Shown here in pieces: positions 59,124 to 64,000 of a stretch of DNA of 64,000 bases (the first letter of the stretch is position 1; each line of letters begins with the position of its first letter). The DNA is from Pseudonocardia sp. (GTDB taxonomy: Bacteria > Actinomycetota > Actinomycetes > Mycobacteriales > Pseudonocardiaceae). Made by a program: the position numbers and the translations under genes. The stretch is taken from positions 142,334-206,333 of the forward strand of contig NZ_JAJCYB010000074.1 in the NCBI RefSeq assembly GCF_029263155.1, given 5' to 3'. The notes under the pieces are model-generated. The model was not told the DNA's origin. It did no database searches and saw nothing but the letters and a program-made list of their open reading frames with translations.

Positions 59124-59158
59124 TCGCGGGTTCCCACCCGCCGCACCTACCGGCGATC

Positions 59159-59490
59159 ATGCCCTCCATCGTCGTCCTGCTCACCGCGACCGACCGGCTG
59201 CCCGACGAGATCGCCATGCACTTCGCCCTCGGCGGGGCCGCTGATGGCTTCTTCGACCGGTGGGCCGTCGTCGCGATCCTCGTCGCGTTCGCGGTCGGCT
59301 CCACCGCGGTGTTCGCGCTGCTCACCCACCGCCATGCGCGCCTGTCGCCCGCCCCGATCGCCTCCGGCGACCCCGGGCGCCAGCTGGCCGGAACCGCCTG
59401 GGCCGTCGCGGGGGTCTTCGGCACCGTGACGTACTTCGCGATCGCGGCCAACCTCGACCTCGCCGACGCCGCGGACGCCGTCCTCCCCGG
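59159..59490 (+). pseudogene. DUF1648-like membrane protein, 3'-truncated
   Basis: ATDRLPDEIAMHFALGGAADGFFDRW; coherent protein sequence ends where the antisense integrase remnant begins. Confidence 0.55.
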
Positions 59491-59965
59491 CTGTCGAATC
59501 CGCTTCACCTGCCCGCTGTCTCCACGTCTCGACACAGCTCCGCCACAGCCGGGCGGTCGTCCATCCGAGGGTGAGCCGCCGGATCCGGCCGCTCTTCGTC
59601 GGCCCGACCATCTCGGCAGCGGTTCCGCGGCTGATCGTCAGGACCTCCCCGTCGAGATCGCCGATCTGCAGCGCGGCCAACTCACCACGGCGGGCGCCGG
59701 TGTCCGCGGCCAACCGCGCCAGGAGCAGAACCTGTTCCCGACGGTGGACCTCCACCAGACCGGCCGATGACGTGAGACGTTGACGGGCGTCGGCGACCTA
59801 GTCGCCGGCGACCTGCAGGATCCGGCGGACCGTCTCGACAGGGGCGTGGAGCCGCGTCGTGCTCGTCGACGGCCCGCGCATCCCCCGCAGCGGCGGCGCG
59901 TCCAGGATGCCCTCCCGGTAGGCCCACCCGAATGCCGAGCGCAGGCACCGCACCCTGGCCGCGAT
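59490..59965 (-). pseudogene. tyrosine recombinase (phage-type integrase) remnant
   Basis: VRCLRSAFGWAYREGILDAPPLRGMR...ILQVAGD-TAG-VADARQRLTSSAGLVEVHRREQVLLLARLAADTGARRGELAALQIGDLDGEVL; in-frame TAG at 59798-59800; lacks H-x-x-R...Y. Confidence 0.75.
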
Positions 59966-60101
59966 CTCGCAGTTCCCACACTCCGGGGTGTCGCTGCCGC
60001 ATCGAACCGCTGCCCCGAGATCTGTTCCTCGTGCCCGACCGTACGGCGGCCCCGGGAAGCGACGGTCGATCGATCCGACCTGGCATCCTGACGCGGTGGC
60101 G

Positions 60102-60434
60102 ATGCCGGAACCGGATGTGGCACGGGTACGGCGCTGGTGCGCCGCGCGGGTACCCGAGCACGCCCTCCACCAGGTTCGTATCGAGTGCGACGCCACCCCA
60201 CGCCACCTGACGATCGTCGAACGCCGCGCTCCGTGGCGCGCCGATCTCGGACCGGACTGGACCACCCTCCCGGTCGCTCGCCTGCGCTACACCGCGACCG
60301 ACCGGACGTGGACGCTGTACTGGCGCGACCGCAACCTGCGCTTCCACCGCTACGACCAGCTGGCCGCCTCACCGCAGGTGGACGATCTCCTCGCCGAGAT
60401 CGAGCACGACCCCACCGCCATCTTCTGGGGTTGA
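60102..60434 (+). CDS. DUF3024 domain protein
   Basis: PEHALHQVRIECDATPRHLTIVERRAPW...ARLRYTATDRTWTLYWRDRNLRFHRYD. Confidence 0.85.
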   Translation: MPEPDVARVRRWCAARVPEHALHQVRIECDATPRHLTIVERRAPWRADLGPDWTTLPVARLRYTATDRTWTLYWRDRNLRFHRYDQLAASPQVDDLLAEIEHDPTAIFWG

Positions 60435-60574: not shown

Positions 60575-60618
60575 TGGTGCGCCCGAAGGGATTCGAACCC
60601 CTAACCGTCTGATCCGTA
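60575..60618 (-). repeat. partial tRNA-Arg(ACG) 3' end, att-like copy 1
   Basis: Reverse strand TACGGATCAGACGGTTAGGGGTTCGAATCCCTTCGGGCGCACCA; no 5' half. Confidence 0.85.
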
Positions 60619-60709
60619 TCGGCACGCCGACACCGGCACCCGCGGCGTCCTGGGCATCGCTGCATGCGCGAGGCATCAAACCGGTCGCAAGATGCAGGGT
60701 GTGGCGACA

Positions 60710-60732
60710 GTTCGTGGACCAACCCGTGGACC
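60710..60732. repeat. arm-type direct repeat, copy 1
   Basis: GTTCGTGGACCAACCCGTGGACC, 92 bp from att-like copy 1. Confidence 0.55.
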
Positions 60733-60835
60733 ACGACTGTCGACTGTGGAGCGCTCGCCTTCCCGCATTTTGGCGCGGTCGAGAAGCCCTCGACTGGAGC
60801 CGACCTGGCACACGATACGCCTGCATCGCCAGAGG

Positions 60836-61300
60836 TCAGGCGTCCCGGCGCTGGCGAGGTGCTTGCACCTCATCGGAGGACGTGCCCGCGCGAGCCGCCT
60901 CCACGCTGCGCTGCAGTGCAACAAGCAGGTCCTTCATGTTGTCGTCAGGAACGACGCCTGTCGTGTCTGCCGTGGGGCTCGAAGCAGCACCCACGACATG
61001 CAGGGCGACCGACTCCAGACGGTCGACCCGGGCAGCCAGGTCCGCCAAGGTGACCTGGCTCGAACGCGGCTGCGTAGGCCGCCTGTCCTCGATCCACCGG
61101 CGGATCAGCGCAGTTGGCTTGACCCGCTCAGCTTCGGCCTGATCCCGAACCCAGTCGAGCAAGGACTTGGGCAGACGCAGTGAGGTGACGACCATCGGGT
61201 CCGGTTCGACCTCGGTTTCCCACGTCGCCGTCTCGATTTCCTCGCTGAGGTCGGTGCTGCCGAAGTGTTCGCGTAGTTCCGCCAGATCCTTGTCGTTCAT
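60836..61300 (-). CDS. RHH-like antitoxin with Ku-tail-like C-terminus
   Basis: MVVTSLRLPKSLLDWVRDQAEAERVKPTALIRRWIEDR; immediately downstream of BrnT-like toxin. Confidence 0.8.
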   Translation of the reverse strand: MNDKDLAELREHFGSTDLSEEIETATWETEVEPDPMVVTSLRLPKSLLDWVRDQAEAERVKPTALIRRWIEDRRPTQPRSSQVTLADLAARVDRLESVALHVVGAASSPTADTTGVVPDDNMKDLLVALQRSVEAARAGTSSDEVQAPRQRRDA

Positions 61301-61335
61301 GTCATCTGCCCTCCGATGCGGGCTGGGATTGGGAG

Positions 61336-61602
61336 TCAACGTGCTCGGCGGATGAAGGTCCGACGCTCGCTGTCGGTCATGTCTCGCGCGGTGACGACGA
61401 ACATTCGTCCGTCCTCACCGTTGGACAGGACAACCACCAGGTAGCGGCCGGCGTCGGTCGTACCGAACGCAACCTGCGTGCCGCCCCTGCCGGAGTTGAG
61501 CAGGCGAGGCCTACTGAAGACCGCCTGCTCAACCTCAGCCGGGTCGACCTTGTGCCGGGCTATGTGGTCCTCGCTGTCCTCGGTCCACCGAATCTCCCGC
61601 AC
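61336..61602 (-). CDS. BrnT-like toxin
   Basis: VREIRWTEDSEDHIARHKVDPAEVEQAVFSRPRLLNSGRGGTQVAFGTTDAGRYLVVVLSN...MFVVTARDMTDSERRTF. Confidence 0.8.
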   Translation of the reverse strand: MREIRWTEDSEDHIARHKVDPAEVEQAVFSRPRLLNSGRGGTQVAFGTTDAGRYLVVVLSNGEDGRMFVVTARDMTDSERRTFIRRAR

Positions 61603-61611
61603 CCACCTGAG

Positions 61612-61629
61612 CGTACTACGACGTACTAC
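61612..61629. promoter_or_regulatory. tandem CGTACTAC repeats upstream of toxin-antitoxin pair (candidate RHH operator)
   Basis: CGTACTAC at 61612-61619 and 61622-61629, 10-bp period. Confidence 0.6.
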
Positions 61630-61802
61630 ACATGAGTAGCAGAGCGACAGGACCTCGACACCCTCGCGTCGCGCGGAGGAGTGCGCTGTCAACGAACGGG
61701 AACCACCCAAGTCGACGCCAAGACCGTGGACCGAGATCAACTAGTCACCTTGAACAAGGATCTAACCCCGACCGTTCGTGCTGGTCAGGGCTAGTGTGAC
61801 GA

Positions 61803-61846
61803 TGGTGCGCCCGAAGGGATTCGAACCCCTAACCTTCTGATCCGTA
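61803..61846 (-). repeat. partial tRNA-Arg(ACG) 3' end, att-like copy 2
   Basis: Reverse strand TACGGATCAGAAGGTTAGGGGTTCGAATCCCTTCGGGCGCACCA; one mismatch to copy 1. Confidence 0.85.
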
Positions 61847-61938
61847 GTTCGGACGTTGGCGTACGCATGGCGGGCGACCTGGGCGGACGGCGGCGAGAGT
61901 GGCGGCCGGGCGCGCAGATTCGGCACCACGTGTCAGCA

Positions 61939-61961
61939 GTTCGTGGATCAATTCGTGGATC
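61939..61961. repeat. arm-type direct repeat, copy 2
   Basis: GTTCGTGGATCAATTCGTGGATC, 93 bp from att-like copy 2. Confidence 0.55.
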
Positions 61962-62029
61962 GAGATCAACATCCCGCGCCCGCGGCGTGCTCGACTTGCG
62001 GCTTGGCCGGACTGCGCTCTACTTCGGTC

Positions 62030-62974
62030 GTGATCGCGCGACCAGTACTGGAAGCTCACCACGCCTACGTACGCGGAGACAACGCGTGGCAGCAGCGTGC
62101 GCGCCTGCACCAGTCCCTCTGGCGGCAAGCACACGGTCTGCTCGCCGGCATGCACGGTGACAAGCCGCTCGGTTCGCGCCTCCCCCCAACCGCCGACGCC
62201 GAACCTCCGACACTCTCGAACTACCTCTCACCACAAGCGCAGCACTGCGTCGAGGGCGCCGTCGCGGAAGCGCCGAAGACCGGTGCTCTCCTCGGCCGAC
62301 CGCGGCTCTGGGTCGACCTACTCTCCAGCCAGCCGCTTTGCTTCAACCTGTTCGGGCCCCTTGCCGAGGACCACACGCTCGCCGGGCGGGTCCTGTCGAT
62401 GCTCTGGCCCGACATCCGCACGGTCAACGACATCCGATTCGAGTGGTCACCCGGCCGGGGCGACGAGGCCTACACCGGCAACCGCTCCGCGTTCGACGTC
62501 TTCGTCGACTACGACGGCCCGCTCGGGCGCTCGTTCCTCGGGATCGAGGTCAAGTACCACGAGGACCTCTCCGGCAGAGCCGCGAAGGACGAGAACGGCA
62601 GGTACACGGCCTTGGCCAACAAGCACGGGATCTTCCGCGAGGATCTCGTCCCCGCACTGCAGAAGCCCCCGCTGCAACAGATCTGGCTCGACCATCTCCT
62701 CGCCCTGCAGCTGAGATCCAACCCGAAGAACGACGGCTGGAAGGCCGGCACCTTCGCACTGCTGTATCCCGTCGGCAACACCGCCTGCGCCGACGGTGCG
62801 GCGCGCTATCGCCGATGCCTCACCGACGTCGAAACCTTCGACGCTCGCACGCTCGACGACGTCGTCCAGGCCGCCCGACTGACGAGTCCAGCTTCATGGC
62901 CAGACGATGTGTACGCCCGCTATCTCGATCCGACCCTGGTCAACGCCACGATCGCCGATCCCGCCGGCGCATAG
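62030..62974 (+). CDS. PD-(D/E)XK nuclease, PGN_0703-like putative restriction endonuclease
   Basis: RSAFDVFVDYDGPLGRSFLGIEVKYHEDLS (D...ExK) and overall layout; start at GTG 62030 is inferred. Confidence 0.75.
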   Translation: MIARPVLEAHHAYVRGDNAWQQRARLHQSLWRQAHGLLAGMHGDKPLGSRLPPTADAEPPTLSNYLSPQAQHCVEGAVAEAPKTGALLGRPRLWVDLLSSQPLCFNLFGPLAEDHTLAGRVLSMLWPDIRTVNDIRFEWSPGRGDEAYTGNRSAFDVFVDYDGPLGRSFLGIEVKYHEDLSGRAAKDENGRYTALANKHGIFREDLVPALQKPPLQQIWLDHLLALQLRSNPKNDGWKAGTFALLYPVGNTACADGAARYRRCLTDVETFDARTLDDVVQAARLTSPASWPDDVYARYLDPTLVNATIADPAGA

Positions 62975-63005
62975 CCGGCTCGTCGTTCGCGGCATACTTC
63001 CCGCC

Positions 63006-63881
63006 GTGGACTACGAGGTCTCGACGCCCGTACCCGGCTCCGTCGTCGAGGCCGTGTCGCCAGTACGTCTTCCTTTCGAGCCCAGAGGCTGGCTCGTCGA
63101 CTTCCGGCGTGACCTCACGCAAGCTTGCAGGACTCTGACAGCCGGCCCTGACCAGGTTCTTCACGCCGCCTACAGCTCGGCCGACCGTCGACTGTCCGAC
63201 ATCGAGAACGTCCTGAGCTACAACCTCGGAACCGGCGCTCTCCGGGCGGCCGCCGCGCACGGACTCATCCTCGAACGATCCTTCACCACACCACCAACTG
63301 GTCCGCACCACTACCGCTACGAGCTCGTCCTCGACAGTGCTCCGTGGCGGTACTGGCGACCGAGCCGGCTACTGGCCGACCTCACCATGGACGCCCCACT
63401 GTCCCTGTTCACCGAGCCGAAGGCCGGACGGTGGTGGCTCGCGGCCCGCCGCGGCGAGGTCACCGCACAGTCGAACCGCTCGGAACCACCCGAGGCCTAT
63501 GCCTTGTCGATCACGGTGTCGCCTCCGGCCGGATGGCGCGGAAGCCTGTCGGGACTGATCAAGCCCCTCGCCGACGGCGTCGTCTCCGCACTCCACAACC
63601 ACGCCGACCCGGTCGACCAGATCGTCGACCGCGCATCGTCGATCGACCCCACGCTCACGACCGGAGAACTGACAGCGCTCCTTGCGCGAACGGGACCAGC
63701 ACCGCTCGGCACCGTGCGGCTCCTCACGCCACGGGGCGCCGGGGTGCAGTGGCTGCCAGCAGACGACGGCATCGTGGCGCTCGACATCCGGATCACGAGC
63801 CGTATCGCTCCGGGAACGGTCAAGGCGAGGGCACACCTCGTCGAGAAGCTCCCCCAGCCACGGCTGACAGTGAGTATGTAG
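63006..63881 (+). CDS. uncharacterised protein, 31 bp after the nuclease gene
   Basis: Long ORF with good codon bias, no domain recognised; GTG start inferred. Confidence 0.75.
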   Translation: MDYEVSTPVPGSVVEAVSPVRLPFEPRGWLVDFRRDLTQACRTLTAGPDQVLHAAYSSADRRLSDIENVLSYNLGTGALRAAAAHGLILERSFTTPPTGPHHYRYELVLDSAPWRYWRPSRLLADLTMDAPLSLFTEPKAGRWWLAARRGEVTAQSNRSEPPEAYALSITVSPPAGWRGSLSGLIKPLADGVVSALHNHADPVDQIVDRASSIDPTLTTGELTALLARTGPAPLGTVRLLTPRGAGVQWLPADDGIVALDIRITSRIAPGTVKARAHLVEKLPQPRLTVSM

Positions 63882-63968: not shown

Positions 63969-64000
63969 GTTCTGCACTCACCAGACGCGCGGTGTGACCT

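Follow-up and report, generated by a model that had tools for sequence, protein, structure and literature searches.

ADP-ribosylglycohydrolase (ARG) systems have been described as containing a rapidly evolving REase (Iyer et al. 2022, PMC9503650), and the Pfam family REase-ARP (PF22558) appears, judging from its name, to represent this rapidly evolving REase of the ARG/ARPP conflict systems. A search by name for PGN_0703, REase-ARP and PDDEXK_13 returned no reports in the literature library used. Within the class to which the genome studied here belongs, 3 of 246 other genomes have nucleases of the Pfam family PDDEXK_13 (PF20796); the family also occurs in other phyla and on plasmids, where the homologues are annotated as "hypothetical protein", and relatives are also found in two viral contigs and three unannotated phage records. 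Elsewhere these relatives stand alone or with varied neighbours: two lie beside ARG genes and a phosphatase domain or gene (L010 and L020), one is accompanied by an ARG gene and a GIY-YIG gene (L021), and others lie beside a DUF7002 gene (L007) or a gene for a PLD-type protein (L014). Two relatives have extra C-terminal sequence; by eye, the extension of L013 looks like a second nuclease-like region and that of L011 resembles DUF6508, and both are possibly other partners of the PDDEXK_13 family.

We analyzed a PDDEXK_13 nuclease gene of Pseudonocardia and the gene that follows it, referred to here as the partner. The window, by which we mean the whole 64,000-nucleotide stretch analyzed, is the last 64 kb of a contig of 206,333 bases (C74) in a 133-contig assembly (G000), and the contig ends 119 bp 3' of the partner stop codon, so that sequence past position 64,000 is absent from it. 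The original prediction had placed here two codirectional open reading frames 31 bp apart, the first with a PD-(D/E)XK core and the second in no recognized family, next to an att-like tRNA-Arg fragment, and all of these points are borne out (Table 1). GC content in this region falls to 63–69%, from mostly more than 70%, and an RNA family search found nothing above threshold near the pair. The first protein matches PDDEXK_13 with 286.8 bits over the full length of the profile (positions 2–290 of 290) and, more weakly, REase-ARP with 89.1 bits, both against a cut-off of 27. In an alignment of 16 sequences drawn from Actinomycetota, Pseudomonadota, Chloroflexi, Planctomycetota and one deltaproteobacterial MAG, the residues E138, D156, E173, K175 and Q217 (an E…D…ExK…Q core) are invariant, and the window copy thus retains an intact PD-(D/E)XK core. 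A resemblance to PGN_0703-type endonucleases had also been suggested; an NCBIfam search with the nuclease at E<=1 gave no match that would confirm this name. The profiles of PADLOC-DB 2.0.0 matched neither the nuclease, the partner nor a fusion of the two described below, and a search of the PDB returned no solved structure for either protein profile. Estimates of dN/dS for the nuclease (~0.16 against the sister genome G692 and ~0.25 against Pseudonocardia pini) and for the partner (~0.54 and ~0.39, respectively) show the partner changing faster than the nuclease, and both genes look like coding sequences under purifying selection.

Table 1. Features of the island end that carries the nuclease and its partner (window positions)
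Feature	Position	Strand	Remarks
DUF3024 gene	59988–60434	+	near a probable degraded integrase
tRNA-Arg(ACG) 3'-end fragment, outer	60575..60618	-	likely outer limit of the island
CopG/BrnA-like antitoxin gene	60836..61339	-	sub-threshold Pfam match; in the cassette between the tRNA fragments
BrnT-like toxin gene	61336..61740	-	sub-threshold Pfam match; in the cassette between the tRNA fragments
tRNA-Arg(ACG) 3'-end fragment, inner	61803..61846	-	att-like; tRNA 3' flank to its left (61780–61802)
Two near-repeats (TTCGTGGATCAATTCGTGGATCGA)	61935..61970	+	resemble integrase arm-type sites (putative role)
PD-(D/E)XK nuclease gene	62030..62974	+	GTG start; 314 aa; PDDEXK_13 and REase-ARP matches
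Intergenic gap	62975..63005	+	31 bp from first stop to second start; identical in G692; replaced by an in-frame linker in P. pini
Partner gene	63006..63881	+	GTG start; 291 aa; uncharacterized actinobacterial domain family

The partner is without a match in Pfam, NCBIfam, PADLOC or the PDB, yet it belongs to a distinct and conserved family. Its conserved motifs are D65-x-E67-N68, W144, K186-x3-D190-G, H199 and W249-x-P-x-D253; D65, E67, N68, Y105 and W144 are present in all 11 aligned sequences, and K186, D190, H199, R238, W249 and D253 in all 10 that reach that far. The conserved acidic, lysine and histidine residues are more in keeping with ligand binding or catalysis than with a plain inhibitor, and since most family members are not basic (pI mostly 5.6–8), a general DNA-binding domain is not suggested. 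AlphaFold models reached a pLDDT of 52.5 with two sequences and 31.4 with one, and Foldseek searches with these low-pLDDT models gave no meaningful matches. A RusA-like resolvase was considered on the basis of a phrog_34 match (E=0.085) and a resemblance to the RusA motif DxDN…K…DD. It was ruled out, as hhalign against 60 RusA proteins gave a probability below 1%, extra sequences weakened the signal and column-shuffled profiles equalled or beat the score in 11 of 100 and 58 of 100 cases. An internal duplication was likewise dismissed, the match between the N- and C-terminal halves not being significant.

Partner or profile queries against more than 1,100 genomes show the family to be sporadic: in four samples it was found in 3 of 150, 4 of 348, 4 of 397 and 10 of 399 genomes (the counts include the window genome wherever it was drawn). 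Matches in two further genomes (G160 and G182, E ~1e-4) look spurious, as they lie within an epimerase-type ORF whose neighbours are P450 and transport genes. One homologue is plasmid-borne, whereas viral contigs and phage records yielded no copy. Several mycobacteria-type genomes, one of them a Mycobacterium gordonae genome, encode longer proteins (450–714 codons) with the partner domain at the C-terminal end; it is preceded by a SIMPL domain in one and by unrecognized front ends in the others. By eye, four of the mycobacteria-type proteins (L167, L168, L169 and L171) share a Cys-rich segment (GYVIN…LHxAxC…KVCA…CGTCxP) before the partner domain, for which Pfam and NCBIfam gave no match. Among the neighbours of partner homologues, one lies beside HsdM and near HsdS, one adjoins a GmrSD_C HNH gene, another is near an OLD-like ATPase gene, and a shorter one is beside AbiEi/AbiEii-like genes. 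At another locus a 170-amino acid protein directly before a partner homologue (L037:6026-6535) contains a stretch, VRVEVDA…VVVEACARQG, that looks by eye like a PD-(D/E)XK core; it has no Pfam match, and the partner homologue there has one in-frame stop. Of nine genomes with a whole or partial partner, a PDDEXK_13 search detected the nuclease in three, all of the Pseudonocardia group, and no match was obtained in five distant partner-bearing genomes (G141, G107, G450, G986 and G088). This suggests that defence-type loci use the partner as a portable domain, and that it is not an accessory of this nuclease alone. A broader reading, which we hold to be possible but doubtful, is that the family is a new portable actinobacterial defence domain that acts as an enzyme or ligand sensor through its D-x-E-N and K-x3-D-G…H…W-x-P-x-D motifs, is plugged onto different front ends (the PD-(D/E)XK nuclease, SIMPL, unrecognized N-termini) and triggers or executes an undescribed immune response.

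Within the Pseudonocardia group the two genes are closely coupled, the nuclease being followed by the partner in all three genomes with an intact nuclease, namely the window genome, G692 (94% amino acid identity for the nuclease and 89% for the partner) and P. pini (~69% and ~55%). In P. pini they form one uninterrupted 695-codon ORF with a short linker; as this fusion is seen in a single assembly, a sequencing error at the junction is possible. The P. pini fusion adjoins tRNA-Leu(CAA) and integrase-like ORFs, which differ from the tRNA and integrase of the window island, and judging from this difference in site the nuclease–partner unit appears to have moved. In Pseudonocardia oceani (L006:5800-7770) we observed a nuclease truncated to its first 141 residues, 87% identical and joined to unrelated sequence, between two att-like repeats of the same kind as at the window pair; it is probably a remnant of the same unit. 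Among the nuclease loci examined outside the genus none has an adjoining partner. The conserved adjacency that the original prediction proposed to look for across actinobacteria therefore stands for the genus, one fusion included, but was not found outside it, and within our searches the pairing is limited to the Pseudonocardia group because elsewhere each family recombines with other neighbours. That the families do not co-occur outside the genus, in the loci and genomes examined, is what would be expected if two unrelated genes had come to be adjacent by chance in a cargo region; we consider this the most improbable of the readings discussed here, given that all three genus members with an intact nuclease have the partner adjoining, at two different tRNA sites and once as a fusion.

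The same coupling bears on the possibility that the nuclease is a self-targeting toxin, acting in abortive infection or addiction, which the partner inhibits until infection or loss of the element. The pair is a two-gene operon of a mobile island and has a BrnT/BrnA-like toxin–antitoxin cassette beside it, and its partner evolves faster than the nuclease, all of which is compatible with such an arrangement. We nevertheless think it unlikely, because the partner domain occurs without a PDDEXK_13 nuclease in several genomes and as the C-terminal part of other multidomain proteins, because P. pini has an in-frame fusion of it to the nuclease, and because nuclease relatives without the partner in many phyla imply that no such antidote is needed. 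For the same reasons (occurrence without the nuclease, one fusion to it and fusions to other domains elsewhere), a dedicated immunity protein is the least likely of the roles proposed for the partner in the original prediction, the others being a specificity protein and a sensor.

The pair is located at one end of a mobile, defence-rich island. The two tRNA fragments, which are 1228 bp apart with the outer one upstream, correspond to the intact tRNA-Arg(ACG) between its anticodon loop and its 3' end, diverging after TCCGTAGT, and the tRNA 3' flank is also present at the inner fragment. Sequence similar to the near-repeats beside the pair aligns next to other tRNA fragments in the genus. The intact tRNA-Arg(ACG) lies on another contig of the window genome (C32) and at position 1,452,075 of G692, in which the contig carrying the pair spans 6.49 Mb. 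A 58-kb stretch of G692 is delimited by the outer fragment (1,394,121) and the intact tRNA, with a tyrosine integrase adjoining the intact tRNA, a TrwC-type relaxase further in and, at the opposite end, immediately inward of the outer fragment, the nuclease, the partner, a DUF4357 protein directly after them that is the PADLOC candidate PDC-S14 (378 bits), a tRNA fragment and a PNP/NB-ARC STAND protein. Beside the intact tRNA on C32 there are an integrase, a TrwC relaxase, a DrmD-like SNF2 helicase and a type III Mod/Res pair. The shared tRNA and the arrangement in G692 lead us to infer that C74 and C32 belong to one island, between which other contigs may intervene. The defence-gene content fits the island context originally predicted, and the pair itself lacks a methylase, as noted originally, although a type III methylase is found on C32 in an island of this kind.

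Other features of these contigs can be described briefly. On C32 (L069, G000:C32:1-19000) the DrmD-like SNF2 helicase (668 bits), the type III methylase and the type III restriction subunit lie in a row and are possibly an SNF2–type III hybrid. The 1.2-kb BrnT/BrnA-like cassette of the window (60575–61846) is enclosed by two tRNA-Arg(ACG) 3' ends, as if small units were stacked at the site, and outside the outer fragment (59150–60350, minus strand) is a probable degraded tyrosine integrase with broken frames and a weak Phage_integrase match (E=0.066).

This setting could also be read as that of an integrative element whose own DNA-processing genes, serving recombination, transfer or maintenance and not defence, include the pair. 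The pair does lie just inside the att fragment of an element with an integrase and a TrwC relaxase, and plasmids carry copies of the nuclease and one partner homologue. It is, however, at the end of the island away from the integrase and relaxase and among defence-type neighbours; partner homologues reside in different islands beside R-M, AbiE and OLD genes, and the fusion in P. pini has another tRNA and other integrase-like ORFs beside it. We therefore regard a role in element processing as improbable.

Taken together, the defence-rich mobile island and the fusion in a related species suggest that the pair probably works together against invading DNA. On the strength of sequence comparisons, we favour with a probability of about one half a restriction-like nuclease module that lacks a methylase of its own. 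The module would belong to the cargo of an integrative element at tRNA-Arg(ACG), and in it a PD-(D/E)XK effector would be licensed or directed to cut by a physically coupled partner. The nuclease would cut nucleic acid, most likely DNA. A physical complex of the two proteins is argued for by the fusion and the conserved gene order, and this complex would act on invading DNA. Since many lineages have the nuclease but not the partner, the latter most likely contributes control or targeting; it would probably bind or process a ligand or DNA feature that marks the invader, and may sense rather than execute. With no methylase beside the pair, self-protection would need the absence of the trigger, as in modification-dependent or abortive systems, and host DNA would be spared in this way and not by methylation. 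The defence role itself is a prediction, as genes located in a defence island need not serve defence. Should the pair prove to be a defence system, it would offer a module of two genes with no methylase of its own, easy to transfer and test, and would give a handle on a domain absent from the defence library searched (PADLOC).

How does the pair compare with known systems? Its likeness to REase-ARP lies in the score above the cut-off and in the several nuclease relatives beside ARG and phosphatase genes. The pair might accordingly be viewed as an offshoot of the ARG-centred systems, a REase-ARP effector in which the partner has replaced ARPP, and the rapidly evolving REase described in those systems (PMC9503650) and the three nuclease relatives with ARG genes, two of them with a phosphatase domain or gene, would agree with this. 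It differs from these systems in that no ARG gene (PF03747) was found beside it or in the island stretches searched: the gene is absent from P. pini, the sole copy in G692 is ~4.8 Mb from the pair by record coordinates, and that of the window genome is on a different contig (C63). The partner is of a different, unnamed family, and general profile searches identified no ARPP-like gene beside the pair. Such an origin is in our view very unlikely.

Stand-alone type II restriction enzymes with a partner or control protein are similar in having a single-domain REase in a small operon, but no methyltransferase was found next to the pair in the window, where the contig ends 119 bp after the partner, and in the libraries searched the partner is unlike a control protein or specificity subunit. 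A cognate type II methyltransferase is argued against by the genes that follow the pair elsewhere, which are PDC-S14 and PNP-NB-ARC in G692 and DUF6884/GIY-YIG in P. pini. Methylase-free, type IV-like restriction offers a parallel in combining a PD-(D/E)XK nuclease and a second component with no dedicated methylase adjoining, and one partner homologue is found beside a GmrSD_C gene; the pair differs in having no recognized modification-reading domain and no NTPase. With PDDEXK_13 itself the likeness is a full-length match and invariant catalytic residues, whereas other members occur alone or with other C-terminal additions (L011 and L013) and the Pseudonocardia branch alone was seen accompanied by the partner. 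The partner family recurs, often C-terminally, beside several restriction and abortive genes in mycobacteria and relatives, and the nuclease half comes from a family that recombines with many conflict-system neighbours and that here has gained a partner from an unnamed protein family.
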